A DNA stretch of 46,145 nucleotides, taken from Tepidibacillus decaturensis (lineage in GTDB: Bacteria > Bacillota > Bacilli > Tepidibacillales > Tepidibacillaceae). Position 1 is the first letter of the stretch; every line of letters begins with the position of its first letter. Where the stretch lies: positions 2,581,555 to 2,627,699 of the forward strand of contig NZ_LSKU01000001.1 of the NCBI RefSeq assembly GCF_001561915.1, written 5' to 3'. Below, in pieces: positions 74 to 38,457 of the stretch. Position numbers and translations under genes: made by a program. The notes beneath the pieces were generated by a model. The model ran no database searches and was not told the DNA's origin. It worked only from the letters and a program-made list of their open reading frames with translations.

Positions 74-1046
74 GGAAGATACAATTTTCTTCAAAATATT
101 TGCCTTGCCATGTATCCCTTCTTGCTAATTCTTTATCAATCCCATTTAAAACTTCCCATTTCTTCAATGTCCATAATGGTTCTACTAAAAGATCTGGTGG
201 GCCATCTCCTGTTAAACGATGAACAACCATCTCAGGAGGCAAAATTTCAATCATATCTACGACCAACTTGGTGTATTCCTCACGATTCATAAAAGTTAAT
301 TTGCCTTCCCGATATAATTTCATCATCGGTGTTTTTCTCAAGAGATGAAGCATATGGATTTTTATACCTTGAACAGGCATCTGGGCTACAGCTTTTGCCG
401 TTTCCATCATTTCTTCTTCACTTTCTCCAGGCAAATTCACAATAATATGAACCACTACATTAATATTCCGTTCTCTTAATTTACGAACGCCATCTAAAAA
501 AACTTCATAACTATGGGCTCTGTTTATCAATTGTTGGGTATGCTCATGAATGGTTTGTAGACCCAATTCGACCCAGAGGTTTGTTTTATGATTCATTTCC
601 TCTAGTAAATCAAGAACATCATCTGGCAAACAATCTGGGCGAGTAGCAATGGATAGGCCAACAACTCCTTCTTCCTCTAAGATTGCTTCATACATCTCTC
701 GTAATTCGTTTACAGGAGCATACGTATTAGAGAAGGCCTGAAAATAGCCAATATATTTTGCCTTCGGCCACTTTTCATGCATCTTATCTCGTACTTCTCT
801 AAATTGCTGTTTTAATTCTATTCTTCTATCTCCAGCAAAATCGCCGGATCCACGAGCACTACAAAAAATACAACCTCCTGTAGCCACTGAACCATCACGG
901 TTTGGACAAGTAAATCCACCATCTAACATCACTTTAAATACTTTTTCTCCAAATTTCTGGCGATAATCATAATTTAATGTATGATAACGTTTGTTCCCCC
1001 ATAAGCGAGGAACCTGCTCTTGAACACTTGTTGTTGATTTGATCAT
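57..1046 (-). CDS. ytqA: TIGR01212-family radical SAM protein (YtqA-like)
   Basis: Radical SAM protein of about 329 residues, close to the size of Bacillus YtqA. Early in the protein a cysteine cluster runs C-P-N-R-D-G, six more residues and then CIFC; this is the family form of the [4Fe-4S]-binding motif. It is followed by SARGSGDFAGD, typical of this family, and by motifs of an Elp3/MiaB-like core (EEEGVVGLSIATRPDCLP, VELGLQTIHE). The substrate is not known with certainty; a tRNA- or cofactor-modifying role is inferred from the fold. A TTG at 1073 and an ATG at 1061 are also in frame. I chose the ATG at 1046 because GGAAG lies eight bases upstream and the remaining protein begins where relatives do. 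It lies about 55 bases downstream of the HAD phosphatase gene, probably in the same transcript. Confidence 0.85.
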   Translation of the reverse strand: MIKSTTSVQEQVPRLWGNKRYHTLNYDYRQKFGEKVFKVMLDGGFTCPNRDGSVATGGCIFCSARGSGDFAGDRRIELKQQFREVRDKMHEKWPKAKYIGYFQAFSNTYAPVNELREMYEAILEEEGVVGLSIATRPDCLPDDVLDLLEEMNHKTNLWVELGLQTIHEHTQQLINRAHSYEVFLDGVRKLRERNINVVVHIIVNLPGESEEEMMETAKAVAQMPVQGIKIHMLHLLRKTPMMKLYREGKLTFMNREEYTKLVVDMIEILPPEMVVHRLTGDGPPDLLVEPLWTLKKWEVLNGIDKELARRDTWQGKYFEENCIFHDDHL

Positions 1047-16719: not shown

Positions 16720-17612
16720 TTATTTTTTTATCTGCTTATCAGATACTTGCAAGAGATCAGATACAATCGACAAGTCACCAATTGGATAAATGTGAACACC
16801 TTGAACGATCCCCTTTATCTCCTCAATTAATTGTTGTGCTATCTCTATTCCTGCTTTTCTACCCCCTGTTCTACTTTGGCAATCATCTCCGATGAAATAT
16901 GGATACCTGGTACTTTTTCATTTAGATAATAAGCCATTTTCACACTCTTTATAGGAAGAATGCCAAAAATGACATGAACTGGTAGGCCTCTTATTTTCTC
17001 TAAAAATCGTTCTACTTGGGAAAGTTCATAAACAGGCTGAGTTTGAACAAATTCGACTCCAGACTCAATCTTTCTTTTTAGTTTTTCCACTTCAAGCTCT
17101 AGGTCATCATTTCCAGGGTTTGCAGCACCGCCGATAAAGAAATCAGTTGCGCTGTTTAAAGGATTGCCTGATAAGTCCTTTCCTTGGTTGAGTTGATAGG
17201 CAATGTTGGCTAATCCTGTCGAGTCGACTTCAAAGACTCCTTTTGCTTGTGGGTGATCTCCTCTAGCTGGTGAATCTCCTGTTAAGGTGAGGATGTTTCT
17301 AACACCTAAAGCTGCAGCACCTAATAGTTCTGATTGCAGTCCTATGATATTGCGGTCACGACAAGTTAAATGGAATATCGCCTCTATCCCCATATCCTGT
17401 TGAATCACATGTGCTAAAGCAATGGGACTCATTCGTAGTGTAGCCATGGGGCTATCTGCAATATTTACCGCATCCACAATCCCCCTCAAAAAGGTAGCCT
17501 TCTCTAAAACAGGCATTGGATTTGCTCCTTTGGGCGGTTCTAATTCTACTGTGGTGACAAATTTCCCTAACGTTAATTTTTCTTTTAATCCATGAATTTG
17601 ATAGATACTCAT
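16720..17612 (-). pseudogene. metF: Methylenetetrahydrofolate reductase, frameshifted near the C terminus
   Basis: MetF reduces methylene-THF to methyl-THF for methionine synthesis. From the ATG at 17612 the frame carries VTTVELEPPKG, the FAD-site region ILTLTGDSPARGDHP and ESGVEFVQTQPVY, then stops early at 16845 after 255 residues. The expected C-terminal helix and strand continue in the next frame as GRKAGIEIAQQLIEEIKG through GVHIYPIGDLSIVSDLL to a stop at 16720. The switch falls at five Gs (16862-16866); a sixth G would restore a 297-residue protein of normal length. It is either a real frameshift or a homopolymer error. It shares one base with the hom stop codon and ends the metX-hom-metF operon. 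Confidence 0.85.
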
Positions 17613-18931: not shown

Positions 18932-20012
18932 ATAAACCCTCCTTTACAATCGATCCCCATTTATCAAATTCGACTAAAAAACCATCATGGCCATAAATCG
19001 TATCGATCTCATAAAAATTTGCATGACCTCCTAATTGACGATAGGCCTCTGTTAGCTCCTTTAAACTTTCTGGCGGATAAAGCAAATCCCCTTTATAGGC
19101 AATAGCGATCATAGGGGCTTTTAATAATTTCAAGGCTTCTTTCCATCCTCCACGGCCACGACCGATGTCATGACTATCCATCGCCTTAAGTAAATATAGA
19201 TAGCTATTGGCATCAAAACGTTTTGTTAATTTATCTCCTTGATAACTAAGATAAGATTCTATTTCAAACGTAATTTCATCGTGGGAATTCCCCCACTCAT
19301 TACGAAGGCTCCTCTGAAAACGTTGATTATACAACTCTTGTGAACGATAAGTAATCATTCCTAACATACGTGCAAGACTTAATCCATGATCAGGTTTATC
19401 TTCCAATGGATAATTTCCATGATTCCATTTAGGGTCATGAATAATAGCAAAGCGGGACATAGCATTAAAAGCGATGGCATAGTCACTTAAATAAGAAGTC
19501 GCAGCAAGGGGAAATAGCTTATCCATAAAGGTAGGGTAAAGAATTCCCCATTCCAAAACTTGCATTCCACCTAATGACCCTCCAATCACTGCATGCACAT
19601 GATCAATACCCATTTTCCTTAATGCTTTGTATTGAGCATGAACCATATCCCTGATGGTAACAAAGGGAAATGAAGCACGATAAATCTCTTTATTGTCAGG
19701 GTTTATACTTAAAGGACCTGTTGTACCATTACATCCACCAATCACGTTTGTCGTAATCACTTGATACTCATTCGTATCAATCCATTGATAGGGGCCAATC
19801 ATCCCAGACCACCAACCAGATGTCCCATCATTTCCATAAGCAAATTGATTTCCTGTCAAACCATGACACACTAATATAACAGGTGCACCAATGGAGCCTA
19901 CCCTCTCATAAGCTATATGAGCTTGTGGTAAAATCGTTCCAGATTCAAGCATTAAATCTCCAATTTCTATTTTTCCATACTCATAATGAAGATTGATCTC
20001 TGCCACCGCCAT
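18918..20012 (-). CDS. metX: Homoserine O-acetyltransferase (MetX family)
   Basis: 364-residue alpha/beta-hydrolase enzyme that activates homoserine for methionine synthesis. CHGLTGNQFA forms the oxyanion region, GGSLGGMQVLEW holds the nucleophilic Ser, YKGDLLYPPE the Asp and YGHDGFLVE the His. The motifs AYERVGSIGAPVILV and VIGGCNGTTGPLS are standard for the family. MetX sequences are usually acetyl-CoA-dependent; a succinyl-specific variant cannot be excluded by eye. The ATG follows GAGGAGGAGTAAGG. It is the first gene after an S-box leader (20124-20226) with two terminators, so it is expressed when S-adenosylmethionine is low. Confidence 0.93.
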   Translation of the reverse strand: MAVAEINLHYEYGKIEIGDLMLESGTILPQAHIAYERVGSIGAPVILVCHGLTGNQFAYGNDGTSGWWSGMIGPYQWIDTNEYQVITTNVIGGCNGTTGPLSINPDNKEIYRASFPFVTIRDMVHAQYKALRKMGIDHVHAVIGGSLGGMQVLEWGILYPTFMDKLFPLAATSYLSDYAIAFNAMSRFAIIHDPKWNHGNYPLEDKPDHGLSLARMLGMITYRSQELYNQRFQRSLRNEWGNSHDEITFEIESYLSYQGDKLTKRFDANSYLYLLKAMDSHDIGRGRGGWKEALKLLKAPMIAIAYKGDLLYPPESLKELTEAYRQLGGHANFYEIDTIYGHDGFLVEFDKWGSIVKEGLYGID

Positions 20013-20110: not shown

Positions 20111-20123
20111 GATCGCCGCTCTT

Positions 20124-20226
20124 CTTATCTATCAGAACATGAATGTTCTGCAGGAATTGGCACCGCGTTTTATTTAAACCGGTTGCCGGGCTTCATAGGG
20201 CCAGTCCCTCCGCCTCTCTGGATAAG
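20124..20226 (-). promoter_or_regulatory. SAM-I riboswitch (S-box) controlling metX-hom-metF
   Basis: The minus strand shows the full S-box order: CTTATCcAGAG at the start, GGCGGAGGGACTGGCCC, GAAGCCCGGCAACC, then GGTGCCAATTCCTGC and AGAACATTC-type hairpins, closing with GATAAG pairing back to CTTATC. S-adenosylmethionine binding stabilises the aptamer and permits the terminator at 20082-20110. Regulation of methionine synthesis genes is the established role of this class. Confidence 0.96.
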
Positions 20227-20258
20227 AATTTCCTTTATTAAATTAAATGATTAATACA

Positions 20259-26620: not shown

Positions 26621-27556
26621 TTAAACTGCAGTTGGATGGTTTGCTTTGAACGAGTTATTCTCCGTGTTTGCCTCGTTTGCTTTGTTTTCCTCTTTACGTT
26701 GGTTCGTGTATCGAACCCAAAAGATCACTACGATAAAATATCCTAAATACGCTAATAACTCTTCAATCGATGGGTGGTGGGAATAACCAAACATGGCTTT
26801 CATAAAGATTCCTACTTGGCCACTGATTAGTGGTTGTTTTCCTGTGTCTCTAATATACTGTGCGGCATCGATTGGATGTTCAGGCATGAAGCCAATAATA
26901 TTATATACTTCAGGCATTGCACTACCCAAGATTCCTAAATCTTGCATCATGCCAATACCTTGGACTAACAATCCAGCAGCAATCATCATAATCAATATAC
27001 CAGTAATTTTGAAAAAGGTTTTTAATGGGAAACGGACAAGTCCTTTAAACATTAAATAAGCAATGACCGCAGAAAGAATTAAACCAAACAAGGCGCCTTT
27101 ACTTTCAATGGCTCTAGTAATATCTCCCCCTGTTATAGCTGCAAAGAAGAAGACTGTTTCTACTCCCTCACGGAGAACAACTAAATAAGCATGTGTCACC
27201 ATGCCAATGACACTACCAGTTGTGACGATTTGCGAAAGTTTATCTTGTGTCTTAGTATGCACGTCTCTATTGTTTTCATTCATCCAAAAAATCATTTGCG
27301 TTAAAAGAACGCTTGAGACTAACATAATTCCTAACTTCATATAATTTTGACTTCCCATTGATGTAAATCCAGTCAAAACTACCTGAAAGATTAATGCCAT
27401 TAATAAGCTTGAAATAACTGCGCCAAATGCACCAGTCCAAACCCATTTATTATATTTTGCTCGGTCCATTTTTTTTAAATAAGTAATGATGATCCCTATA
27501 ATGAGAAAAGCTTCTAACCCTTCCCTAAAGGTGATTAAAAATGCCTGAAAATCCAT
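26621..27556 (-). CDS. FTR1-family iron permease
   Basis: 311-residue membrane protein of the FTR1/EfeU family, which imports ferric iron. Two REXXE iron-binding motifs are visible: REGLE at residues 11-15 in the first helix and REGVE at 129-133. About seven membrane helices can be counted. The tail (residues 285-311) is hydrophilic. The protein lacks the extra N-terminal extracellular domain of long bacterial FTR1 forms; a separately encoded secreted protein at 29235-29996 may replace it. No EfeO or EfeB gene is nearby. A consensus promoter overlapped by Fur boxes (27652-27709) lies just upstream, so iron-repressed expression is expected. Confidence 0.88.
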   Translation of the reverse strand: MDFQAFLITFREGLEAFLIIGIIITYLKKMDRAKYNKWVWTGAFGAVISSLLMALIFQVVLTGFTSMGSQNYMKLGIMLVSSVLLTQMIFWMNENNRDVHTKTQDKLSQIVTTGSVIGMVTHAYLVVLREGVETVFFFAAITGGDITRAIESKGALFGLILSAVIAYLMFKGLVRFPLKTFFKITGILIMMIAAGLLVQGIGMMQDLGILGSAMPEVYNIIGFMPEHPIDAAQYIRDTGKQPLISGQVGIFMKAMFGYSHHPSIEELLAYLGYFIVVIFWVRYTNQRKEENKANEANTENNSFKANHPTAV

Positions 27557-27651
27557 TCTCCTTTTCCCCCTTAAGACAATCTAATAGATTCGTTCCCATC
27601 ATAAGTATATGGCTATTTTCACTATTATGATATTGTTATCTTTATTATTAC

Positions 27652-27709
27652 GATAATGATAATCATTATCATTTGTAAATATTTTATTGCAAATCATTCT
27701 CATTGTCAA
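27652..27709 (-). promoter_or_regulatory. Fur-controlled promoter of the FTR1 gene
   Basis: TTGACA (27704-27709) and TAAAAT (27681-27686) are spaced by 17 bases on the minus strand. Just downstream, 27652-27670 is GATAATGATAATCATTATC, a perfect 19-base Fur box. The promoter spacer itself contains TGACAATGAGAATGATT, a second, weaker Fur-like repeat. Fur with iron would block this promoter twice. Confidence 0.9.
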
Positions 27710-29238
27710 TGCTTTAATTTTTCATATAACTCTGGCAATGCTTCATATAAGACGATCTGATAGTAAGTAGGATAAAGAAATGAATCTGCTTCGGTTTGAA
27801 AAACAGGTTTTAAATAAGGTGCGTACTTTCCCTTCTGTTCTCCGAAACCATCTAAAACAGCATTCGTCACCAAAATACGCCGATTCTCCCCATAAATAAG
27901 GATTTGATTTTCAAAATCTGCTGGATTCCTTAAACGAATGGTTTGAAAATCAGGATATAAATATTGAATCACCCTTTGCTCTTCCCAGGTAAAAATCGTT
28001 GTTTGTTCAGGATGATAGGATTGGTTGATTTGATTCGCCAGTTGTACCATCGGCGGTTTTTCAACTGCATACTGTTCTACTAATGGAATCGATGTAATCA
28101 TCGTAACGAAAGCTAATCCTAAAAATATCGGTTTAGAAAACCGACCTATTTTCCCTAGACTCCATACAAAACCTATCAATATGAATGGGATCAAGATTGC
28201 AACATGCCGCGGTTTATCTAAGTTTTGTCCAATAAAAGCCCAAAGAATATAAGGGATTGTACTAAGTAAATAGAGTAGGCAACGGTAGGATTTCATCGAT
28301 TGAAAGTGAAAGTATTTTGGAAAAAGCCGAATCTTTTTACTTACTTTTAAAAAGTGATAAACGATCCATAGCAATCCTCCAAATAGAAAAAAGGAAATAA
28401 TCCAACTTTTCCCCCCAAGGCTTACCCAAATCAGTTTGATAAAGCTTTCAACTCGATCTAGATAACGTGGGCTAGTTAATACAGTTCCTCCCCAATCGGT
28501 AAAATGTCCTGAAGTAAAAGCAATTCCTAACCTCAAGTAAGGAAGAAGTCCCCCTTCTGTATAAGCCACTGGAAAAAACCATAATGCTAATCCGAAAAAA
28601 AGTGATAAGGCCATCAATACAGTATGCCTTAATAAAGTTCTCCATTTGATCCTTTGTTGAAGATCAAAGCTAGACATGAGAAGTGGTAGCAAAAGGACTG
28701 CGACAAAAGGAAAATAAGAGATTCTTACGCCCATGGCTAATCCATAAACAAATGAAGCGATGATTCCTGTACGCAGATACTCGGATTGAGTTAAGGATTG
28801 ATTGAAGGTACGGGAGATAATCCACAATACGACCCAAATCATCATCATCCCCAAACTATCTGACATCGGTTGTTCAGCCATTAGCCATAGCAGTGGATTA
28901 ACGGCAGAAAGGATTGTAGTAAAAAGAGCGATCTTTTTCCCTAGCCAATTCTTTATCGTGAAATAGATAAGAGGTATCATGATGATTCCAGCGATAGCAC
29001 TTACCAGACTTAGTGAAATAATGGGTTCACTCACCAACTTGTTCATCCATTTTGTAGGTAAAAGGTATAAAGGGTACCCTGGAAAATGAGGCTGCATGTT
29101 GTAGATATCATATCTAACAACACCTAACGCAAAATCGACCGTATCCCAACTATCAGGATAGCGGCCGATATAAAGCAAACGGGGGATTGCAATAACACCC
29201 AAAGCAAAAAAGATCAACCATTTTTCCCCTTTTATCAT
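27706..29238 (-). CDS. GT39/PMT-like integral membrane glycosyltransferase
   Basis: 510-residue protein with about ten to twelve membrane helices. The first external loop contains the acidic YPDSWDTVDFALGV, comparable to the Asp-containing loop of GT-C enzymes such as PMT and ArnT. Such enzymes use polyprenyl-phosphate sugars to glycosylate surface acceptors. The C-terminal 90 residues form an extracytoplasmic domain. Its start overlaps the stop of the secreted iron-regulated protein gene (29235) by four bases, so the two are translationally coupled and under one Fur-controlled promoter. The donor sugar could be made by the GT2 enzyme at 30072. The family is clear; donor and acceptor are unknown. 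Confidence 0.75.
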   Translation of the reverse strand: MIKGEKWLIFFALGVIAIPRLLYIGRYPDSWDTVDFALGVVRYDIYNMQPHFPGYPLYLLPTKWMNKLVSEPIISLSLVSAIAGIIMIPLIYFTIKNWLGKKIALFTTILSAVNPLLWLMAEQPMSDSLGMMMIWVVLWIISRTFNQSLTQSEYLRTGIIASFVYGLAMGVRISYFPFVAVLLLPLLMSSFDLQQRIKWRTLLRHTVLMALSLFFGLALWFFPVAYTEGGLLPYLRLGIAFTSGHFTDWGGTVLTSPRYLDRVESFIKLIWVSLGGKSWIISFFLFGGLLWIVYHFLKVSKKIRLFPKYFHFQSMKSYRCLLYLLSTIPYILWAFIGQNLDKPRHVAILIPFILIGFVWSLGKIGRFSKPIFLGLAFVTMITSIPLVEQYAVEKPPMVQLANQINQSYHPEQTTIFTWEEQRVIQYLYPDFQTIRLRNPADFENQILIYGENRRILVTNAVLDGFGEQKGKYAPYLKPVFQTEADSFLYPTYYQIVLYEALPELYEKLKH

Positions 29239-29996
29239 TTAGTTCGTTTTTTCCCTTTCCTTGTAAAAAGGAGTAGAGCTCCTACAATCACGAATAAAAT
29301 AATTAACAATGGAACCCAGTTAGCCCATGTTGTCGTGCCACCCTTTACCTCAATATCTGTTTGTCCAGTTCCCTTTGTATGTCCTTGATATCCTGCTTCT
29401 GTTTGGAAAAAATCCTTAATCTCATTTAAAATCAGATCCCGATTGGAATCAAACTTTGCCCGATCTGATGAAACTTTTCCTACTCCAAATAATCCAGGAT
29501 TACCAAGGGAAGCTAAGGCTTCATCAAAAGCATTACGTATCTTTTGGTCTAATTCTGGATCTGCTTTTATAACTTCTGGGGATAAGGCTTCATAGTTAGC
29601 AAACGCTTTAGCTAATAATACCTTTGCTTGAGCATAATCATCAAATATTTCCCCCATATTGGTAAATCGTCTTTCAATGTTACGAACGATCACAACCTTC
29701 ATCTCATAAATCACTAGATTTGCATCCTTGTCATCAATTCCTTTTTGAATCCGATCCACCTGCTCTTGGCCAAACTCTTTTACCATTTCTGGTTTAATTT
29801 CATTCAATTTGTTTTGAACTGCTGCAAAATCCTTCGGCTCTTTACTCAATGCTGCTAACATATCTGTATAAGCTGATGCAATTGCATCTTCATTAGGACT
29901 ACCATAAGAATAGGCATTGACATTTGTAGGAATGAATGTTGCTACTAGCATGAGCATCATGAGTAAAGAAGCAACCATGTTACTAGTTTTCATCAT
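29235..29996 (-). CDS. Secreted, C-terminally membrane-anchored protein, Fur-regulated, probably iron-related
   Basis: 253-residue protein. Residues 1-28 form a signal peptide ending near VNA. Residues 29-222 are an external, mostly helical domain rich in charged residues. Residues about 224-244 form a membrane helix, followed by RKGKKRTK, so the topology is type I. A central stretch VVIVRNIERRF, then DPELDQKIRNAFDEALASLG, resembles in style the external helical domain that long FTR1 iron permeases carry at their amino end. I cannot assign a named family. A Fur box promoter (30036-30065) sits just upstream and the FTR1 permease lies two genes downstream, so an iron-capturing partner for FTR1 is a reasonable inference. 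Confidence 0.6.
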   Translation of the reverse strand: MMKTSNMVASLLMMLMLVATFIPTNVNAYSYGSPNEDAIASAYTDMLAALSKEPKDFAAVQNKLNEIKPEMVKEFGQEQVDRIQKGIDDKDANLVIYEMKVVIVRNIERRFTNMGEIFDDYAQAKVLLAKAFANYEALSPEVIKADPELDQKIRNAFDEALASLGNPGLFGVGKVSSDRAKFDSNRDLILNEIKDFFQTEAGYQGHTKGTGQTDIEVKGGTTTWANWVPLLIILFVIVGALLLFTRKGKKRTK

Positions 29997-30035
29997 TTTT
30001 AACCCCCACTCGAAATGATAAAATCTTCCTTTTCT

Positions 30036-30065
30036 ATTTTAATTGATAATGATTATTATCGTCAA
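30036..30065 (-). promoter_or_regulatory. Fur-controlled promoter of the 29235/27706 gene pair
   Basis: TTGACG (30060-30065) and TAAAAT (30036-30041) are spaced by 18 bases on the minus strand. The spacer is ATAATAATCATTATCAAT, a near-consensus Fur box (about 13 of 15 in the 7-1-7 model). The -10 lies about 40 bases before the start codon at 29996. Confidence 0.82.
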
Positions 30066-30071
30066 AGAAAT

Positions 30072-30818
30072 TTAACTATTTTTTGACCATTGATGCGCAT
30101 CCTTGATAATTTTTACTTTTTGTACAGGTCTACTCATTTCTTTGAAAATAGCTGGAATCACTTTCGTCAAATAAGCTTTAAATTTAATGAATGACTTTCC
30201 TTTTTGTCTTACTTGATATTGAATTGGAATTTCTTTAAGCCTAAAACCCTTTCGAACCAAATTCAAAGTTAGGACTTGAGCATAGTTGTAATCATGAATG
30301 ATTTCCGCATGCTCCATTGCTTGCTTGGAAAAAGCTCTCATCCCTGATTGGCCATCATAAATCCATTTTCTTAATAATAAGGACTGTAAAAAGGTAAAGG
30401 TGTAATTACCTAAACGTCGATGTAGCTTCATGCCCTTAATTTGTCCTAAAAAGCGTGAACCTATGATATAATCTGCCTCCCCTTTAAAAAGAGGTTCTAA
30501 AAGATCAGGGATCTGTTCAGGGGGATATTCATTATCTGAATCAATATAAACGCCGATATCAGCCCCTAAACAGAGAGCTTTTTCTAGCCCTTTTCTTACT
30601 GCTGCTCCTAATCCTTGATTGCTTGAGAACGAAAAAATATAATCAGCACCAGCCCTTTTTGCAACAGAGACGGTTTGGTCTTCTGACCCATCATCAATCA
30701 CTAGTACTTTCACATCTATTCTTGAATCAAAATTTCGAGGAATTCTAGCAATAACTTCGCCAATTGTTTCTTCTTCATTATGTGCCGGTAGAAATACGAT
30801 TACTCTCTGCTTCTTCAT
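30072..30818 (-). CDS. GT2-family glycosyltransferase, polyprenyl-phosphate sugar synthase type
   Basis: 248-residue soluble glycosyltransferase of the dolichyl-phosphate-mannose synthase type. The nucleotide-sugar site VFLPAHNEEETIGEVIARIP, VIDDGSEDQT and the metal-binding IDSDNEYPPEQIP are all present, and the acceptor region DGQSGMRAFS follows. These enzymes move a sugar from a nucleotide donor to undecaprenyl phosphate on the cytoplasmic face. It lacks the C-terminal membrane helices of GtrB-type proteins, and the UPF0104 protein at 32286 could provide translocation. It overlaps the end of the phosphatase-like gene by 41 bases and closes a four-gene coupled operon. Confidence 0.85.
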   Translation of the reverse strand: MKKQRVIVFLPAHNEEETIGEVIARIPRNFDSRIDVKVLVIDDGSEDQTVSVAKRAGADYIFSFSSNQGLGAAVRKGLEKALCLGADIGVYIDSDNEYPPEQIPDLLEPLFKGEADYIIGSRFLGQIKGMKLHRRLGNYTFTFLQSLLLRKWIYDGQSGMRAFSKQAMEHAEIIHDYNYAQVLTLNLVRKGFRLKEIPIQYQVRQKGKSFIKFKAYLTKVIPAIFKEMSRPVQKVKIIKDAHQWSKNS

Positions 30819-32289
30819 TTATGTTCCCCTTTAACTCTTTGATTGCTTCCATTAGAACAGGACCTCTGCTATGTTCTGGGAATGGCGCACCTAATAAATA
30901 GGCGATGGTCGGAGCAACAGAGATTAAAGAATGTCGCTTATCCACTTGTTTCCCTTTTGCAATATTTGGCCCATGCATAAAGAATGGAACAAATCGTTCC
31001 CCTTCATCTAAATGGCCATGACCACCAATCCCATCTGATTGTCCATGGTCAGCAGCAATAATGATCGTAGTATCTTCCATCATGCCTTTATCTTCTAGCC
31101 AATGAACAAACTCTTCAATTAAATGGTCTGCTTCCTCAATTTTTTGCTTATATTCTTCATACAAAGAACCTCGACTATGCCCAGTTTGATCGGTACTAAT
31201 CAGTTGAACTGCTAATAAATCAGGATTTTGCTCGCTCATTATTTTTTTTGCCCGTTCAATAATATTTCGATCTGCTACATCGTTATTCATGACTGCTGTC
31301 ACACTTTCTACATCATCTGCCATTGCATCGATTAAATGAGCAATTCCTAGTAACCTGCCTTTTTTCCCAACCTTTCTGAGAGAATCAAAGACGCTCTCTA
31401 CTTTAATTCCTAATTTCCATACCATATTCGATTTAATTCCATGCTCTTTTGGGTAAGTCCCTGTAAAGATAGAAGAAAAACAGACAACGGTTCTTGCAGG
31501 GTACACGGTTTCCATTTGTGTATATTCTGTTCCATTTAGTCGCAATTGATCGAGAAAAGGAGTATTGGCTTCAGCAAAACGATCTTTTCTTGCCCCATCT
31601 ACAATTATCATGATCACTTTCTTGGTTAAAGCTTGACTTGATTCTGTGAAAAATTGTTTGGTATATCCTTCCCTTTCCTTTGGTTTCCAATCAAACAAAT
31701 AATGGTGTAAGAGCCAGCTAAATAAGAATACAAAACCACCAAAACCTAATAATCTAATCCAATCTAACTCGCCAATGGTATAACCCTGTTGCAATAAGGA
31801 ATATTGGCGATCCCACAAGAATAACAACAATAAAAACTTCGGGATCTGTTCTTGAGCATTACCACTGGTAGAATCGCTATTTTTTAAAACTAACTTCCAA
31901 AAGCGTGTAAAATTTAACCAAGATGTACCGATTCGTAAATGGTAATAAAAAGTTCCCCAAAAAAAGATAGTAAAGAAAAAATAGAGTCCTAAAGCAAATA
32001 AAGAAAGGCCTATATTTAGCTGATTCCATAAAATGAGCGAAACAACAAAGGGAATCCATAAATAATTCCTTAGCATCAATGGGTAGTCATAAACATAGTA
32101 AATTACAAGTAGAGGCAAAATGGTTAACATGCTCAAAGCCATAGTGGACCAGAACGAACTAGTAGACCAATCGGGAATATGAAAGAGCAAAAAAGTCCCT
32201 ACTACAAAAATAGGAGTAAAAGGTTTTCCCTCATTTAATAAATTCCATCCCCTTGCCGCAATAATCTCAAACCAGGATGCTTTTTTCAT
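30778..32289 (-). CDS. Membrane-bound alkaline-phosphatase-superfamily phosphodiesterase
   Basis: 503-residue protein. Residues 1-190 contain about five membrane helices. Residues about 220-480 form an alkaline-phosphatase-superfamily domain of the nucleotide pyrophosphatase/phosphodiesterase type. IIVDGARKDRF provides a metal-binding Asp, YPARTVVCFSSIFTG the nucleophilic Thr, STDQTGHSRG a metal site, and AADHGQSDGIGGHGH the last metal ligands. Substrates could be a lipid-linked phosphate or phosphodiester at the membrane surface. A longer start at 32325 is possible, but the ATG at 32289 overlaps the upstream stop as ATGA and begins MKKASW, so I prefer it. It is coupled to the UPF0104 gene before it and the GT2 gene after it. 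Confidence 0.8.
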   Translation of the reverse strand: MKKASWFEIIAARGWNLLNEGKPFTPIFVVGTFLLFHIPDWSTSSFWSTMALSMLTILPLLVIYYVYDYPLMLRNYLWIPFVVSLILWNQLNIGLSLFALGLYFFFTIFFWGTFYYHLRIGTSWLNFTRFWKLVLKNSDSTSGNAQEQIPKFLLLLFLWDRQYSLLQQGYTIGELDWIRLLGFGGFVFLFSWLLHHYLFDWKPKEREGYTKQFFTESSQALTKKVIMIIVDGARKDRFAEANTPFLDQLRLNGTEYTQMETVYPARTVVCFSSIFTGTYPKEHGIKSNMVWKLGIKVESVFDSLRKVGKKGRLLGIAHLIDAMADDVESVTAVMNNDVADRNIIERAKKIMSEQNPDLLAVQLISTDQTGHSRGSLYEEYKQKIEEADHLIEEFVHWLEDKGMMEDTTIIIAADHGQSDGIGGHGHLDEGERFVPFFMHGPNIAKGKQVDKRHSLISVAPTIAYLLGAPFPEHSRGPVLMEAIKELKGNINEEAESNRISTGT

Positions 32290-33224
32290 TCTGCATTTGC
32301 CCCTTTCTCGTTGATTTTTAGCCACTTCTTTAATTCGCTGATCCGAATCGGGTATTTAAATAAGACGTAAAGACCAACTAAATAAGAAAAAAAGAACTTA
32401 AATCCATGACTAACCAAAGCAATACTATAGGCTTCCTCCCATGATAAACCCACTCTTGAAAGAGCAAAGCTCATCATACTTTCATAATTGCCGATTCCAC
32501 CTGGTGTAAAATGAAAGACCTGAGTAGAGATTGTTAAACTGTTAACCCAAATTGCATCAAGAAAAGATAGAGAAAGCCCCGAGGCCATCGTTACGCCAAA
32601 CACAACGATCGTTTCAAAAAGCCAACTTAGCGTAATAAACAAAATGAGATAGATTCCTTTTGTTCCTGAAAAAGCCTGTTGAATCATCTGCCAATGTTTT
32701 CGCAAAATGTCTGAATTCATTCTTTTTGATAACCAATAAAAGAGAAGGAGTCCTAAGCTTAAACCGGTAAGCACAATCAGAAATAGGCCTATAGAAAGAT
32801 CGAAACCAATAAATAATGCACCAACATTTGCTATTAGACCCAAGATAAGCATATCTAGTAATCTCATTACCACGACTGAATGAAGAGTTTCATCAAACTG
32901 AACCTTTTTCTCTTTTATTAGCAATCCTACTCTTACTGCATCGCCTACTTTAAGTGGCAACAAATGATTGATAAAGAGACTATAGAATAAGGCATAAAGA
33001 TAAACAGATAGAGGAATGGATTGATTCAAATACCATTTCCATGCCAATGCCCGAAGAACAAAAGCCAGTCCATAAACAACAAACATGGCGATTAACCAAG
33101 TTGGATTGGTTATTAGTTGCTTACTAACCCTTCCAATAAGATCGACATCGAAATAACGCAATGTTAAAAAGGTAAAAAAGATTAAAAAGATAAAGCCTAT
33201 GAGTCGAAAAAGTGTTCTTTTCAT
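32286..33224 (-). CDS. UPF0104 / LPG-synthase-TM-like flippase family protein
   Basis: 312-residue membrane protein with about eight helices, matching the membrane part shared by MprF and AglD-type proteins. LLPLKVGDAVRVGLL and FTPGGIGNYESMMSFAL are the two signature loops of the family. In MprF this domain moves a lipid across the membrane; stand-alone members commonly accompany glycosyltransferases and are thought to translocate lipid-linked sugars. The ATG at 33224 overlaps the SDR stop as ATGA. A longer start at 33251 lacks a better ribosome site. The context supports a role in moving a polyprenyl-phosphate sugar for the GT39 enzyme. Confidence 0.8.
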   Translation of the reverse strand: MKRTLFRLIGFIFLIFFTFLTLRYFDVDLIGRVSKQLITNPTWLIAMFVVYGLAFVLRALAWKWYLNQSIPLSVYLYALFYSLFINHLLPLKVGDAVRVGLLIKEKKVQFDETLHSVVVMRLLDMLILGLIANVGALFIGFDLSIGLFLIVLTGLSLGLLLFYWLSKRMNSDILRKHWQMIQQAFSGTKGIYLILFITLSWLFETIVVFGVTMASGLSLSFLDAIWVNSLTISTQVFHFTPGGIGNYESMMSFALSRVGLSWEEAYSIALVSHGFKFFFSYLVGLYVLFKYPIRISELKKWLKINEKGANAE

Positions 33225-34171
33225 AAAATCTCTTGATGTTCCTTTGCCCAAGTAATGGTACGTGACAATCCCTCTACAATCGATGTAGTTGGTTGATAAC
33301 CTAGCTGTTCCTTTGCCTTGCTAATATCTGCCCAAGTCATTTTTACATCCCCTGTACGCCATGGTTTTTTCACGATTCTCATCTGTGGAAAATGCTTTTT
33401 AAATTCTTGTAATAGTTTGTTCATTGAGACTGGTTGGCCAAAACCAAGATTATAAACTTCATTGGTTGCTGGTCTTTCTATTGCTTTTGTGATTCCGGCG
33501 ATAATGTCATCAATATAGGTATAATCTCGGGCAGAATCAAGAGCAAATACCTCAATCTCCTCTCCCTGTAACAGTTTCTTGATAAATTTAGATATCGCCA
33601 TGTCTGGTCGACCAAAAGGTCCATAAACTGTAAAAAAACGTAAGATCGTTAGTTGAAAACCATAAAGTTGTTGATAGACATTACAAAAAGCTTCACCACT
33701 TACTTTACTTGCTGCATAAGGGGAAATTACTTTGCCATTAGCCATTCCTTCAGATAAAGGTGTTCCCTCTTGATCACCGTAGACCGAAGAAGAGGAGGCA
33801 AAAATCACCTGTTTTACCCCTGTTTCACCAGCCCATTTTAAAAGATTTATAGTCGCTTTAATATTTGAATCTATGTATATTCCTGGATGTTCTATGGAAT
33901 AAGCCACACCTGGCATCGCAGCCAGATGAACCACTACATCAAATGCATTCTGCTTAAAAAGCTCCTTAACAAAATTCTCATCTATTAAATTCTCTTGGTA
34001 AAAATCTACCTTACCCATTCGTATGACACGTTCTAGCAGTTTTAATTTTCTCTCTTGAGAATAGTAAGAATTTAGCTCATCAACAATGATGATATGGTGA
34101 TCTTTTTGTAATAGTTGAATCGCTAAATGATGGCCGATAAAACCAGCGCCACCTGTTACTAAAATTTTCAA
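33221..34171 (-). CDS. NAD-dependent sugar-nucleotide epimerase (UDP-glucuronate 4-epimerase-like SDR)
   Basis: 316-residue extended SDR. GGAGFIGHH at residues 7-15 binds NAD. The catalytic Ser and YAASK (Tyr/Lys pair) follow at SSSVYGDQEGTPLSE and ISPYAASKVSGE. FFTVYGPFGRPDMAI, RDYTYIDDIIAGI and NLGFGQPVSM are typical of UDP-glucuronate and UDP-glucose epimerases. With UDP-glucose dehydrogenase encoded at 35629, a UDP-glucose to UDP-glucuronate to UDP-galacturonate route is plausible. The start is TTG at 34171 after AGAGGTGAGATGGG. It begins the overlapping SDR-UPF0104-phosphatase-GT2 operon, but a strong terminator sits only 38 bases upstream and no clear promoter of its own is visible. Confidence 0.82.
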   Translation of the reverse strand: MKILVTGGAGFIGHHLAIQLLQKDHHIIIVDELNSYYSQERKLKLLERVIRMGKVDFYQENLIDENFVKELFKQNAFDVVVHLAAMPGVAYSIEHPGIYIDSNIKATINLLKWAGETGVKQVIFASSSSVYGDQEGTPLSEGMANGKVISPYAASKVSGEAFCNVYQQLYGFQLTILRFFTVYGPFGRPDMAISKFIKKLLQGEEIEVFALDSARDYTYIDDIIAGITKAIERPATNEVYNLGFGQPVSMNKLLQEFKKHFPQMRIVKKPWRTGDVKMTWADISKAKEQLGYQPTTSIVEGLSRTITWAKEHQEIL

Positions 34172-34209
34172 CCCATCTCACCTCTAAAATAAACGTTTGT
34201 TCACATCAA

Positions 34210-34236
34210 TGAAAAAGCCGCAAAAAGCGGCTTTTT
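34210..34236. terminator. Strong bidirectional hairpin after the lipoprotein gene
   Basis: A perfect 11-bp inverted repeat GAAAAAGCCGC / GCGGCTTTTTC with a five-base loop; the stem arms supply Ts on both strands. It follows the Fur-regulated lipoprotein gene and precedes the SDR operon by 38 bases. It should insulate the two or permit limited read-through. Confidence 0.85.
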
Positions 34237-34245
34237 CAAAAAAGA

Positions 34246-34335
34246 GAAGAAAGTATAACTTTCTTCCACTTCTCCTTAATCTTTATTCATAGAAGGGCAC
34301 GGATAACGGAGCGCGATGGAATATACAAACCTTTT
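34246..34335 (-). repeat. Dispersed repeat, short inverted copy (A)
   Basis: Read on the minus strand, about 60 bases from AAAAGGTTTGTATATTCCAT through CGCGCTCCGT and CCGTGCCCTTCTATGAATAA to AAGATTAAGGAGA match the copy at 40545 with only two or three differences. After a gap, both copies share the hairpin GAAGAAAGTTATACTTTCTT (34246-34266 here). Copy A lacks about 120 internal bases present in copy B. It lies in the untranslated gap downstream of the lipoprotein gene. Confidence 0.85.
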
Positions 34336-34384
34336 CTTATTTTTGAGTCATTCAAAGTATATCCTTGTTACAACATTCTAATCA

Positions 34385-35557
34385 TTACTTACTTGCTTTT
34401 TCAATCGCTGTGTTTAAGCTTTTCTCAATTTCGGTTAGAATATTTTTAGCTTCTTCTTGTTTTTGCGCCTTTGTAGCTTCAAGATGCTTTTGGGCTTGTT
34501 CATTTAAAGTATTGTAAGCTTCTTCTCCTAGAATTCGTTGAAGATCAGTATCAATCATATCAATAAACAGTGCTCCTTCAAGAGCTGTAATGACAGCTTT
34601 ATCTTTGCCCCAATTCTCTTGGCTTTCTTCATATTCTTTAAGAGCAACCATCGCAAAACCTTTTACGAAGGCATTGTTTATTGCATTAGGATCTATTGCT
34701 TTCACATCTGTAGCAAGATCAAATTGGCTTTGAATAAATTCTGCTTCTTCCTTGGCGTTTTTCACTAAATATCCGTTTAAAGCTTGATAGAAGGCCCAAC
34801 CCTCTGCTTGTTCTGCTTTTGCTTCTTTTTCATCTTCTTGTGCTGCAATTTTGCTTGCATAACCATTAGGTAAGGCCCCTGTAGCTAAATAGAAAGTCTT
34901 CATCAATGTTTTATCAACAACTTGTTTTCCTAGTTGAAACCCTAATTGATCTCCTGCTTCTATTGCTTTGTCCATTTCAGCAAAGCCTGCATCAATTTTA
35001 GCAACTAATTGAGTTTGGTAAGCTGCATCACGTTTTTCAACCGTAGATTTTAGAATCGCATAAAATTCTTTTGCTTCCTTCATTTCTTCTTTAACCTTAT
35101 CTTTATTATCCCAGTTTTCTGCTACTTCAGTGAATTCATGACGAATGGTAAAGAAGAAATTCTTTTGCATTAATTTGTCAAAGATTTGCTTTACAACAAC
35201 CCCATCCATTGAGTTGTTTTTTCCAGCCTCTAAGGCTGCCATGATCTGTTGATCAGCAGACTCATTAAATTCAGCATCACGTTTTTGAACCAATGGTTGA
35301 AGTTCTTTTGTATAAAGGTCAATCACCTTTTGATAATCTACTGTTTGTCCTTCCTTTGCTTTTGCAAGTTCATCTACTGCTTCTTTATAGATCGTAGATA
35401 CGGACACTTCTTTATTTTCTTCTTTTTGTGTCTCTGTTTGATTCGTTTGTTGTGGTTCTATGTTTTTTTGGCTAGTTTCTGTTGTACTACACCCCGCCAA
35501 AACACCACTTGCTGCAATAATTCCTGTTAGAACTGCGATATGTAGCTTTTTCTTCAT
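34385..35557 (-). CDS. Fur-regulated surface lipoprotein with three internal repeats
   Basis: 390-residue lipoprotein. Residues 1-22 form a type II signal peptide with lipobox LAGC (lipidated Cys23), followed by a Gln/Glu/Thr-rich linker to about residue 50. The remainder is helical and appears to consist of three related units of about 75-110 residues. They end at KEAKEFYAIL (about 160-169), AEGWAFYQAL (251-260) and LEGALFIDMI (326-335). Two of the ends are preceded by W-(N/G)-KDK-x(4,7)-E. I do not recognise the family. A consensus promoter and two Fur boxes lie upstream, so it is probably derepressed by iron starvation and could bind iron, heme or a siderophore at the surface. Confidence 0.6.
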   Translation of the reverse strand: MKKKLHIAVLTGIIAASGVLAGCSTTETSQKNIEPQQTNQTETQKEENKEVSVSTIYKEAVDELAKAKEGQTVDYQKVIDLYTKELQPLVQKRDAEFNESADQQIMAALEAGKNNSMDGVVVKQIFDKLMQKNFFFTIRHEFTEVAENWDNKDKVKEEMKEAKEFYAILKSTVEKRDAAYQTQLVAKIDAGFAEMDKAIEAGDQLGFQLGKQVVDKTLMKTFYLATGALPNGYASKIAAQEDEKEAKAEQAEGWAFYQALNGYLVKNAKEEAEFIQSQFDLATDVKAIDPNAINNAFVKGFAMVALKEYEESQENWGKDKAVITALEGALFIDMIDTDLQRILGEEAYNTLNEQAQKHLEATKAQKQEEAKNILTEIEKSLNTAIEKASK

Positions 35558-35570
35558 GATAACCCCCCTA

Positions 35571-35632
35571 ATTGATAATGATTTTCATTTCTCTCTAACT
35601 GAAATTATAAAGATAATGAGAATCATTGTCAA
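35571..35632 (-). promoter_or_regulatory. Fur-controlled promoter of the lipoprotein gene, two Fur boxes
   Basis: TTGACA (35627-35632) and TATAAT (35604-35609) are both perfect and spaced by 17 bases on the minus strand. A Fur box at 35612-35630 (17 of 19 to consensus) fills the spacer. A second, ATTGATAATGATTTTCATT at 35571-35589, lies between the -10 and the ribosome binding site. The -35 overlaps the end of the ugd gene. Confidence 0.9.
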
Positions 35633-37002
35633 CTATAATTTCTCCCGATGCCGAAATATTGAAACCCAGCTTCTATTAATGGGGCAATATCTAATAGATT
35701 GCGGCCATCAATTATAATTTTATCTTCCATTTTTTTAGCTAATTCGCCATAAGGAAGGGTTTTAAATTGCTTCCATTCTGTAACGAGAATAATAGCATGA
35801 CTATGCTCAAAAATCTCTTCGATCTTTTTAATATATTTAATCTTCCATTTAGGATATGTCTTTCTAAAGTTATCCATGGCTATAGGATCATATACTTTGA
35901 TAGCTGCACCTAATTCCAATAATTTTTCTATGATTTCAATCGAGATCGCCCCTCGAATATCATCGGTATTTGGCTTAAAGGAAAGGCCAAGGATGCCAAT
36001 CTCTTTATTTTTTAAATTCCCTAACGCTTCCTTTAATTTAGAAATGACCCATTCCTTTTGCTTTTGATTGACATCGATTGTTGCTTTGACCAATGACATT
36101 TCGATTCCTTTTTCTTTTCCTTGATTTAAAATGGCCGAGGTATCTTTAGGAAAACATCCCCCTCCCCAGCCAATTCCTGCTTTTAGATAGCTTGTTCCAA
36201 TCCTTTGATCCAATCCAATTCCTTCGGCCACTTCTGTGATATCTGCACCTACTTTTTCAGCCAACCTTGCAATTTCATTGATGAAGGAAATCTTCATTGC
36301 TAAAAAGGCATTAGCCGCATATTTGATCAATTCTGCACTTTTAATTTCTGTTACAAACCATACCGGTTTAGGTTGATGATCTGGCCGTTGAATAGGCAAC
36401 TTTAAGGATAAGGAAAATGTCTGATTTAGTATTGGTGAGTATAGCCTTTTTAATAAGTCTTGCACATGGGAAGAATCTGTGCCAATTACAATACGATCAG
36501 GATATAGACTATCGTATACTGCTAACCCTTCTCGCAAAAATTCTGGGTTAGATGCAACATAGATTTCTTGGTTAATTTCCCGTTTTTTCAGTTCTTCTTC
36601 GATCCATTCTTTAACACGATAAGTCGTGCCAACAGGAACTGTAGATTTAATGATCACAATAGGTTGACTTCCATTGCTCCACTTTTGGCCTATACTTTTT
36701 GCAACTTTTTCAACTGACGTTAAATCAACGTCGCCATTTTCCTTCATTGGTGTTCCAACTGTAATGATAATCAACTCTGTCTTAGAGTTAAACGATCCCC
36801 ATGAAGAAATAAAGGTAAGGTTGGGTCTAGCCACCTCCAGTAGCTCTCCCAACCCTTCTTCAAAAATAGGAACCTCACCTTGTTTCAGTTTCTCTATCTT
36901 ATCCTTATTATAATCTAAGAGGGTAACATCATTTCCCAAAGAAGCGAAAATCGCAGCTGTTGTAAGACCTACATACCCTGCTCCAATCATTGTAATTCTC
37001 AA
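35629..37002 (-). CDS. ugd: UDP-glucose 6-dehydrogenase
   Basis: 457-residue enzyme that oxidises UDP-glucose to UDP-glucuronate with two NAD+. MIGAGYVGLTTAAIFASLG binds NAD. VGTPMKENGDVDLT, KSTVPVGTT and NPEFLREG are standard, the catalytic Cys lies in GWGGGCFPKDT, and a C-terminal UDP-binding domain contains GLSFKPNTDDIR. The start is TTG after GAAGGTGAACAAAAA. It lies 17 bases downstream of glyS, so it may share that transcript, and precedes the Fur-regulated lipoprotein and the SDR operon. It could supply UDP-glucuronate to the neighbouring epimerase. TuaD in Bacillus does the same for teichuronic acid. Confidence 0.93.
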   Translation of the reverse strand: MRITMIGAGYVGLTTAAIFASLGNDVTLLDYNKDKIEKLKQGEVPIFEEGLGELLEVARPNLTFISSWGSFNSKTELIIITVGTPMKENGDVDLTSVEKVAKSIGQKWSNGSQPIVIIKSTVPVGTTYRVKEWIEEELKKREINQEIYVASNPEFLREGLAVYDSLYPDRIVIGTDSSHVQDLLKRLYSPILNQTFSLSLKLPIQRPDHQPKPVWFVTEIKSAELIKYAANAFLAMKISFINEIARLAEKVGADITEVAEGIGLDQRIGTSYLKAGIGWGGGCFPKDTSAILNQGKEKGIEMSLVKATIDVNQKQKEWVISKLKEALGNLKNKEIGILGLSFKPNTDDIRGAISIEIIEKLLELGAAIKVYDPIAMDNFRKTYPKWKIKYIKKIEEIFEHSHAIILVTEWKQFKTLPYGELAKKMEDKIIIDGRNLLDIAPLIEAGFQYFGIGRNYS

Positions 37003-37019
37003 TTTTTGTTCACCTTCTA

Positions 37020-38402
37020 TTAAAACTGAACCTTCTTTTCTAGGTATTCCTTTAATTCAGCAATAGGAATTCGTTGTTGTTCCATGGTATCTCGATCTCG
37101 CACTGTAACCATCTGATCTTGCTTTGAATCAAAGTCGTAAGTAATACAAAACGGTGTACCAATTTCATCGTGGCGACGGTAACGTTTACCGATTGAACCT
37201 GAATCATCAAAATCAACCATGAAATATTTTGAAAGCTCTTCAAAGATACCTCTAGCCTCTTCCGATAGTTTTTTCGATAATGGCAGGATCGCAGCTTTGT
37301 ATGGAGCAAGTGCTGGATGGAAGTGCATCACAGTACGTGTGGTTCCATCTTCAAGTTCTTCCTCATCATAAGCATCGATAAAGAAAGCTAATGCTACACG
37401 ATCCGCTCCAAGAGAAGGTTCAATACAATAAGGAATGTAACGTTCATTGGTTTCTGGATCGATATAGTTGAAGTCTTCACCAGAATATTGCATATGCTGC
37501 TTCAAATCATAATCTGTACGGGAAGCAATACCCCATAATTCGCCCCAACCAAATGGAAACTTATATTCAAAATCGGTGGTTGCATTACTATAATGAGACA
37601 ATTCTTCTTCTGAATGATCGCGCATTCGGATGTTTTCCTTTTTCATTTCTAGGCTGAGTAGCCATTTTTCTGCATATTGCTTCCAATAATCAAACCATTT
37701 TAATTCTTCACCTGGCTTGCAGAAAAACTCAAGCTCCATTTGTTCAAATTCACGTGTACGGAAGGTAAAATTCCCTGGAGTAATCTCGTTACGAAAGCTT
37801 TTACCGATTTGAGCGATACCAAAGGGAAGCTTTTTGCGCATGGTTCGCTGTACATTTTTAAAGTTCACAAAAATTCCTTGTGCTGTTTCTGGACGTAAGT
37901 ATATTTCATTCGTACTTGTTTCTGTAACCCCTTGGTGGGTCTTAAACATTAAATTAAACTGACGGATATTGGTAAAATTATGACTTCCACACTCTGGACA
38001 AGCGATATCATGTTCTTTAATCAATTGTTCCATTCTCTCAAATGGTAATCCATCAACGACCATTTCGATTCCTTTTTCGTCTAAGGCATTTTCGATTAAC
38101 TTATCCGCCCGATGCCTCGCTTTACAGTCCTTACAATCGATCATTGGATCATTAAAATTACCAAGGTGTCCAGAAGCTTCCCAGGTTCTCGGATTCATTA
38201 AAATAGCTGCATCAAGACCGACGTTATAAGGGGATTCTTGCACGTATTTTTTCCACCATGCTCTTTTAATATTGTTTTTCAATTCGGTTCCTAGTGGACC
38301 ATAGTCCCATGTATTCGCTAGTCCACCGTAAATTTCTGATCCTGGAAAAATAAAACCACGATGTTTAGCATGGGCTACAATTTGCTCCATTGTTACATTC
38401 AT
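37020..38402 (-). CDS. glyS: Glycyl-tRNA synthetase, single-chain class II type
   Basis: 460-residue class II synthetase of the homodimeric alpha2 type, unlike the GlyQ/GlyS heterotetramer of B. subtilis. [20 protein letters not shown] at the amino end, a zinc-binding CKDC..CPECGSH insertion, the [13 protein letters not shown] motif 2 region, the [18 protein letters not shown] segment and a C-terminal anticodon-binding domain are visible. The frame is open to 38453, but the ATG at 38402 follows AAGGAGCGAATCAAA and matches the usual start. A T-box leader with a GGC specifier lies just upstream, so uncharged tRNA-Gly induces it. Confidence 0.95.
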
Positions 38403-38457
38403 TTTGATTCGCTCCTTATCTATTACTATTCCAATTACTTTGAGGGACCCCACGAAA

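Follow-up and report, generated by a model that had tools for sequence, protein, structure and literature searches.

A conserved Fur-box gene cluster of Bacilli that may couple ferric iron capture by FEA1-type proteins to transmembrane glycosylation

Introduction

In the EfeUOB system, an FTR1-type iron permease works with extracytoplasmic partners under the control of Fur. FEA1 and FEA2 with FOX1-FTR1 in Chlamydomonas, along with phytotransferrin-related proteins, represent the combination of secreted FEA1-family proteins made upon iron starvation with an FTR1 permease (PMC8098128 and PMC7676907, in excerpt); FEA1 is thought to concentrate iron close to the transporters (excerpt of PMC8098128), and iron binding is described for Ot-Fea1 (excerpt of PMC7676907). 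Multi-component transmembrane glycosylation is represented by CsbB/GtcA/YfhO and GtlA/GtcA/GtlB, in which a GT-A enzyme, a flippase and a GT-C enzyme act through a C55-P-sugar (excerpt of PMC8035078). In the Pgf system of Streptococcus mutans, the GT2 enzyme PgfS, the PMT_2 protein PgfM1 and the epimerase PgfE modify surface proteins (excerpt of PMC5856776). Here we analyse a stretch of 46,145 nucleotides (the window) from Tepidibacillus decaturensis (GCF_001561915.1, contig NZ_LSKU01000001.1; genome 2.96 Mb) containing a gene cluster whose halves would work like FTR1/FEA1 uptake and multi-component transmembrane glycosylation. On the minus strand, from 37002 to 26621, it comprises ugd (UDP-glucose 6-dehydrogenase), FEA (an FEA1-related lipoprotein), SDR-UPF0104-PDE-GT2 (PDE, phosphodiesterase), SecP (a secreted helical protein), GT39 (a membrane glycosyltransferase) and FTR1.

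So faithful is the joint inheritance of the genes for iron capture and import and those for an acidic surface sugar that together they probably form a single iron-scavenging system not described before. We lean towards reading the cluster as a conserved, Fur-box ferric-capture module in which two FEA1-type proteins are combined with their own uronate transmembrane glycosylation pathway, independently of the transporter. Tentatively, we also propose as a possibility that iron uptake depends on this glycosylation, with a uronate glycoprotein under iron control, either SecP alone or SecP together with FEA, as a portable front end for FTR1 or a ferric ABC importer.

The cluster resembles EfeUOB in having an FTR1-type permease and extracytoplasmic partners under Fur boxes. 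FTR1 has the FTR1 domain with REXXE in two helices that marks FTR1/EfeU permeases, both REGxE motifs (R11, R129) being present in 79/79 cluster FTR1 sequences, and it is the only FTR1 gene in the genome. Unlike EfeUOB, the cluster has neither EfeO nor EfeB and adds a glycan pathway: no cluster protein scored above the Pfam M75 cut-off in a search for EfeO M75/cupredoxin, and the genome gave no match to the DyP peroxidase EfeB (PF04261), for which E. coli and B. subtilis controls were positive. In contrast to Chlamydomonas FEA1, the FEA-type proteins here are bacterial, of two different kinds, anchored by lipid or membrane segment in Bacilli and served by an exchangeable transporter; dedicated glycan genes are present and a multicopper oxidase is absent among the cluster proteins. 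Compared with CsbB/GtcA/YfhO and GtlA/GtcA/GtlB, UPF0104 replaces the GtrA flippase, GT2 lacks a membrane segment, PDE and a uronate epimerase are added, and the set is tied to iron genes. Pgf acts on surface proteins, and the PMT_2-type GT-C enzymes to which GT39 belongs include PgfM1 and GtlB (excerpts of PMC5856776 and PMC8035078). As far as those excerpts describe it, Pgf is not an iron system, lacks PDE and UPF0104, and has a UDP-glucose 4-epimerase in PgfE; the window GT2 scores far under the PgfS equivalog cut-off (65.8 vs 500 bits). EfeUOB, the FEA1 equivalog and Pgf thus each fall short on a tested feature, and no known family covers the cluster. None of the papers found in searches of open-access literature was seen to report this gene set, and there is a fair chance that the principle of coupling iron capture to glycosylation is new.

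Iron and glycan genes are inherited together in Bacilli

To define the association, we counted genes in 398 Bacilli genomes, accepting PDE at E 1e-60 or better. SecP was found in 56 genomes (one match weak) and PDE in 58, four of these divergent. In the strict count, all 54 genomes with an orthologous PDE have SecP, and 54 of the 55 genomes with SecP have PDE; in the sole exception (G081), the contig with SecP is 4.7 kb long and breaks off within GT39. Omitted from the strict counts are G233, with a weak SecP match (E 5e-4), and the divergent PDE genes of G073, G109, G141 and G142 (34-40% identity, 315-368 bits). With all rows kept, 54 genomes have both genes, 2 have SecP only and 4 have PDE only. 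The genomes of the four loci with divergent PDE (L150, L151, L152, L153; 34-40% identity) lack a strong SecP match, and in three of them PDE lies at the kind of locus where other genomes keep PDE-GT2, which we take to be recR/tmk.

Five of the 54 genomes carry SecP and PDE at different places, with SDR/UPF0104/PDE/GT2 or GT39/PDE/GT2/Ugd at a separate locus. In G059, G293 and G098, UPF0104-PDE-GT2 (in two of them with SDR) occupies a separate locus, presumably of the recR-tmk type, and SecP, FTR1 and GT39 are found elsewhere; in G137 and G169, it is GT39 that accompanies PDE and GT2 away from SecP. The glycan enzymes accompany SecP also where they are not adjacent to it, and hitch-hiking is therefore disfavoured. 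We rejected chance linkage of the iron and glycan genes on the co-occurrence of PDE and SecP in the 398 genomes. That an ordinary FTR1 uptake operon merely lies beside an unrelated glycan operon agrees with the lack of a Fur box of its own ahead of the SDR operon in Bacilli and with the location of ugd mostly elsewhere (present at 19/80 loci), but it is very improbable given strict co-occurrence that includes genomes with the two parts unlinked, and given recurrence of the set with a different transporter (see below).

The same genes recur as neighbours. Among 61 genomes (T. decaturensis and 60 relatives), FEA was found in 12 and SecP in 11, all 11 being among the 12, and the neighbourhoods hold this gene set in several orders. 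Scanning 84,980 species genomes with the SecP profile yielded 192 confirmed relatives, and the counts below cover the best 80; these belong to Bacilli genera, including Geobacillus, Anoxybacillus and Bacillus methanolicus, and to a few metagenome-assembled genomes of Bacillota or Bacillaceae. These 80 loci contain GT39 (78), FTR1 (78), PDE (75), GT2 (75), FEA (74), SDR (70), UPF0104 (68) and Ugd (19), counts that are lower bounds since some loci end at contig borders. All cluster genes lie on one strand in 80/80 loci, and 59/80 share the exact order FEA-SDR-UPF0104-PDE-GT2-SecP-FTR1-GT39. The window departs from this order, GT39 being placed between SecP and FTR1, and it also has an extra Fur box ahead of FTR1. 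A preliminary description of this DNA, made from the sequence alone, had proposed conservation of the neighbours in relatives as a check, and the outcome across Bacilli is clearly positive, both at the 80 loci and in the 398 genomes; UDP-glucose dehydrogenase, which it had included, is not a core member.

FEA is separable from the set and SecP is not. FEA and SecP are shared in 52 of the 55 genomes that have each. In mirror-tree comparisons, SecP, GT39 and FTR1 correlate best with one another (0.83-0.89), whereas FEA gives the lowest values (0.33-0.48). At the FEA position we observed two sequence types, 21 loci scoring below 200 bits to the window FEA and 53 above (L079, L080, L088 and L094 vs L078, L089 and L093), as if FEA had been exchanged within an otherwise constant cluster.

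Clusters in a second bacterial class carry an ABC transporter

Outside Bacilli, in a sample of 398 genomes of the phylum from which G703 (SecP E 3e-4) was left out, three genomes had good SecP scores (G435, G765, G569). Their clusters contain UPF0104, PDE, GT2, SecP, FEA and GT39, with SDR in two of the three stretches. FTR1 is not present in these clusters, and an ABC transporter is found among or beside the cluster genes. The binding protein of one locus (L178) is closest in the PDB to ferric FutA/FbpA proteins (6g7n 3.4e-99, 2pt1 7.4e-94), suggesting that a FutA/FbpA-type importer probably replaces FTR1 here. We know of no case in which FutABC/FbpABC accompany FEA proteins or a glycan pathway. 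Among 59 genomes examined from this second class, SecP and orthologous PDE are found in the same 3. The second-class SecP has neither linker nor membrane anchor, and the FEA starts inspected in this class showed no lipobox. L178 also holds a tandem pair of FEA-like genes (10629-12968), the second without an NCBIfam family match.

The exchange of transporters bears on whether the cluster is an EfeUOB variant in which FEA and SecP replace EfeO and EfeB and the glycan genes serve the folding or stability of secreted proteins. The combination of FTR1/EfeU with two small extracytoplasmic partners in a genome without DyP peroxidase is what such a variant would look like. The second class, however, swaps FTR1 for a ferric ABC transporter and keeps SecP, FEA and the glycan genes, and we consider this explanation quite improbable.

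FEA and SecP are predicted to be related capture proteins

Relatives of FEA support its kinship to the FEA1-related family, 49 of 53 aligned members matching NF038033 at 1e-3 (best E 2.5e-14), and FEA appears to be a divergent relative of that family rather than a member of the NF038033 equivalog. The lipobox cysteine C23 is conserved in at least 95% of sequences. The preliminary description had called FEA a repeat-containing lipoprotein, and the repeat was borne out by hhalign, which aligned residues 53-165 with 166-265 at 94% (reversed control 0.1%); the comparison of 166-265 with 241-390 was discounted, as columns are shared. SecP has a conserved mature start (YSYG) and a GNPGLFG motif. Family searches assigned it to no family, Pfam M75 giving 14.6 bits against a cut-off of 23.5. 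Profile comparison by hhalign linked SecP and FEA at a probability of 96-97% over about 145 columns, compared with at most 1.0% for unrelated profiles and for reversed or shuffled ones. Direct matches of the SecP profile to FEA genes were obtained in G569 (5.8e-8, 1.9e-5). These comparisons point to SecP as a distant homologue of FEA. The FEA1 kinship of the lipoprotein, the SecP-FEA homology and the ABC transporter in place of FTR1 had all been missed in the earlier account.

In L035 (7809-10512), L160 and L161 the genes are longer, their open reading frames (ORFs) spanning about 500 to 580 aa for FEA and 336 to 372 aa for SecP; the extension of the L035 SecP is a Ser/Thr/Ala/Pro-rich linker preceding the anchor.

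Fur boxes overlap the promoters of the iron genes

The window was scanned with the Fur-box 19-mer GATAATGATAATCATTATC, allowing up to 3 mismatches. Five matches were found vs 0.04 expected from shuffles, far above chance, including a perfect one ahead of FTR1 and others ahead of SecP and FEA (Table 1). Positions 35573-35587 hold a further Fur box, of the 7-1-7 type and with 1 mismatch. Within the whole genome, which encodes three FUR-family proteins, sites with 0 to 2 mismatches to the 19-mer occur only in this cluster. As expected of a Fur regulon, the boxes overlap promoters, and these three rank first among the sigma-A-like promoters in the window (consensus scores of 12/12 for FEA, 11/12 for FTR1 and 10/12 for SecP, all on the minus strand), consistent with the earlier claim of three promoters with overlapping Fur boxes. 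Promoter-like sites overall are not in excess in the window (26 vs 32.2 expected).

The arrangement is kept in relatives. Counting only genes with at least 150 bases of upstream sequence, we found a Fur box (up to 2 mismatches) ahead of SecP in 67/80 loci, 61 of them perfect, and ahead of FEA in 66/74, compared with 3/459 control ORFs; ORF starts were set mechanically, and the upstream windows may be off by some codons. The corresponding counts are 2/78 for FTR1, 1/78 for GT39 and 3/19 for Ugd. No box precedes GT2 (0/75), PDE (0/75) or UPF0104 (0/68), and the window has none immediately upstream of the SDR operon or ugd. In G569 of the second class, a Fur box with 1 mismatch lies ahead of SDR, which opens the run SDR-UPF0104-PDE-GT2-SecP-FEA there, and the ABC binding-protein gene is preceded by a perfect box.

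Enzymes of the glycan pathway

The best PDB relatives of SDR are 5u4q, 4zrm, 6zl6 (BcUGAepi) and MoeE5. Residues S126-S128, Y152, K156, T181 and R188 are present in 71/71 sequences and P87 in 67/71. R188 aligns with Arg185 of BcUGAepi, which holds the carboxylate of GalA (excerpt of PMC12338863). Having both the catalytic residues and the carboxylate-holding Arg of UDP-glucuronate 4-epimerases, SDR is probably such an enzyme. GT2 is closest in the PDB to dolichyl-P-mannose synthase (5mlz, 3.2e-19) and then ArnC. GT39 conserves D32..D35 and PHFPGYP, and a PDB search with its profile returned nothing relevant. By family assignment, a GT-A polyprenyl-P-sugar synthase and a GT-C transferase, as required for transmembrane glycosylation, are thus both in place. 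In the position of a GtrA- or Wzx-type flippase, neither of which was found, stands the UPF0104/LPG_synthase_TM protein, which would do the flipping. PDE shows only four clear hydrophobic peaks. Of the 76 PDE sequences compared, at least 97% retain D243, T279, D379, H383, D426, H427, H436 and H438, residues that we take to be the catalytic ones of the alkaline phosphatase superfamily. The set proposed at the outset for making a UDP-uronate, loading a sugar onto undecaprenyl phosphate, flipping it and transferring it outside therefore fits the families, and the epimerase signature strengthens it; its dehydrogenase step is optional at the locus. That the sugar moved is a uronate, and what accepts it, are predictions.

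Proposed mechanism and the points against it

Upon iron starvation, Fur would be lifted from FEA, SecP and FTR1, and the lipid-anchored FEA and membrane-anchored SecP would bind Fe(III) on the outer side of the membrane and pass it on to the permease, FTR1 in Bacilli and probably a FutA/FbpA-type ABC importer in the second class. Their function would depend on the dedicated glycosylation pathway. Ugd and SDR would make UDP-glucuronate and UDP-galacturonate (UDP-GlcA/UDP-GalA), GT2 would load the uronate onto undecaprenyl phosphate, UPF0104 would flip the lipid-linked uronate, and GT39 would transfer it outside, most likely to the capture proteins (SecP before FEA) or an adjoining surface polymer. 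The uronate carboxylates would help hold iron close to the permease. The frame of PDE is coupled to that of GT2; its probable role is to recycle or trim the lipid-linked intermediate, or else to add a phospho-substituent.

Several observations weigh against this proposal. The window FEA lies far under the NF038033 cut-off (31.5 vs 250 bits). AlphaFold2 models (pLDDT 82.9 for SecP, 90.3 for FEA) gave no confident fold match, the best Foldseek E being 0.29 for SecP and 0.11 for FEA; VIA-align Z reached at most 8.1 and 11.6, respectively, a range common for helical bundles. Fe(III) binding by the two proteins would use a metal site that is putative. FEA occurs without SecP and PDE in 3/55 genomes (G052, G107, G371), and SecP without FEA in 3/55. 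Directly before SDR, a Fur box (up to 2 mismatches) was found in 0/70 Bacilli loci, and a terminator-like hairpin lies in 42/63 FEA-SDR gaps (by a cruder detector than that used for the window); because of this, the glycan operon may be constitutive in Bacilli. The SecP linker was considered as a general sugar acceptor, being rich in Ser/Thr (24% S+T vs 8% in the core). It is absent in the second class and therefore cannot be a general acceptor.

With respect to transcription, the SDR operon is tightly coupled in relatives (median gaps of -26, -4 and -4 bases) and lies a median of 98 bases downstream of FEA, gaps outside -200..600 being left out. Transcription from the FEA promoter may reach it by passing a leaky terminator, or the operon may be constitutive; its iron control in the window is a prediction. 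A precedent is cnm-pgfS, co-transcribed by RT-PCR despite a terminator between cnm and pgfS (excerpt of PMC5856776).

The absence of the linker in the second class also favours the view that the uronate decorates a wall or membrane polymer of the teichoic acid type, creating a general acidic surface near the permease and leaving the capture proteins unglycosylated. PMT_2-type GT-C enzymes such as GtlB decorate lipoteichoic acid (excerpt of PMC8035078). Systems of this kind do not require a constant iron-protein partner; orthologous PDE is nevertheless found only where SecP is (54/54), and we regard this alternative as unlikely, if a serious one.

SecP and FEA could instead bind the acidic glycan or its iron rather than being glycosylated, comparable to the EfeO-like Algp7, which binds alginate (excerpt of PMC3143127). 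The top Foldseek rows for SecP are EfeM and EfeO, with Algp7 at rank 6. At E 0.29 and TM of at most 0.31, these rows are a lead only, and the VIA-align comparison puts unrelated bundles on top (Z at most 8.1), with 3n8u of the M75 fold amid them (VIA Z 7.1). PDB sequence searches with the SecP and FEA profiles returned nothing relevant, and no chain named FEA1 was among the matches. We consider glycan binding of this kind improbable.

If glycosylation-coupled ferric capture is correct, then, as far as the literature searched shows, FEA1-type capture would be described in bacteria for the first time, as would an iron importer for which a glycosyltransferase pathway is obligate. Geobacillus, Anoxybacillus and Bacillus methanolicus would take up iron with surface sugar chemistry as part of capture, and the algal FEA1/phytotransferrin proteins would be linked to a tractable bacterial system. 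UPF0104 and membrane-PDE proteins would gain a candidate setting in this cluster, which also bears on how FTR1 permeases obtain ferric iron without EfeO/EfeB or an oxidase partner.

Features of the window

The coordinates of the cluster are collected in Table 1. Gene set and strands agree with the preliminary description upon comparison with gene calls and family searches. The reading frames of SDR, UPF0104, PDE and GT2 overlap one another, as had been claimed, and the 3' end of the SecP gene overlaps the start of GT39, in line with the coupling of these two genes suggested there.

Table 1. Positions of cluster genes and regulatory elements in the window
Feature	Position	Strand	Evidence
FTR1, iron permease, 311 aa	26621..27556	-	Pfam FTR1 E 1.1e-40
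FTR1 promoter (27709-27681) with perfect Fur box (27652-27670)	27652..27709	-	
GT39, GT-C membrane glycosyltransferase of PMT_2 type, 510 aa	27706..29238	-	Pfam PMT_2 1.3e-8, TMEM260-like 3.3e-6
SecP, secreted helical protein, 253 aa, C-terminal membrane anchor	29235..29996	-	predicted distant homologue of FEA lipoprotein
SecP promoter (30065-30036) with Fur box (30045-30063)	30036..30065	-	
GT2, polyprenyl-phosphate sugar synthase type	30072..30818	-	Pfam GT2 5.8e-24
PDE, membrane-bound alkaline-phosphatase-superfamily phosphodiesterase	30778..32325	-	Pfam Phosphodiest 8.2e-32
UPF0104 (LPG_synthase_TM) flippase-like protein	32286..33251	-	Pfam 4.6e-33; TIGR00374 above cut-off
SDR, probable UDP-glucuronate 4-epimerase	33221..34171	-	PDB relatives and conserved residues
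Terminator-like hairpin between FEA and SDR operon	34245..34267	-	
FEA, FEA1-related lipoprotein, 390 aa, internal repeat	34385..35557	-	NCBIfam NF038033 7.6e-8, below cut-off
FEA promoter (35632-35604) with Fur boxes (35612-35630, 35573-35587)	35571..35632	-	
ugd, UDP-glucose 6-dehydrogenase, TuaD-like, optional member	35629..37002	-	TIGR03026 above cut-off

Within 35629-38453 (minus strand), the ugd gene begins 17 bp behind glyS and may be co-transcribed with it by read-through rather than being under iron control. Elsewhere in the window, a SAM riboswitch (Rfam RF00162, 101 bits) lies at 20122-20228 on the minus strand, apparently ahead of the genes at 16845-20012.

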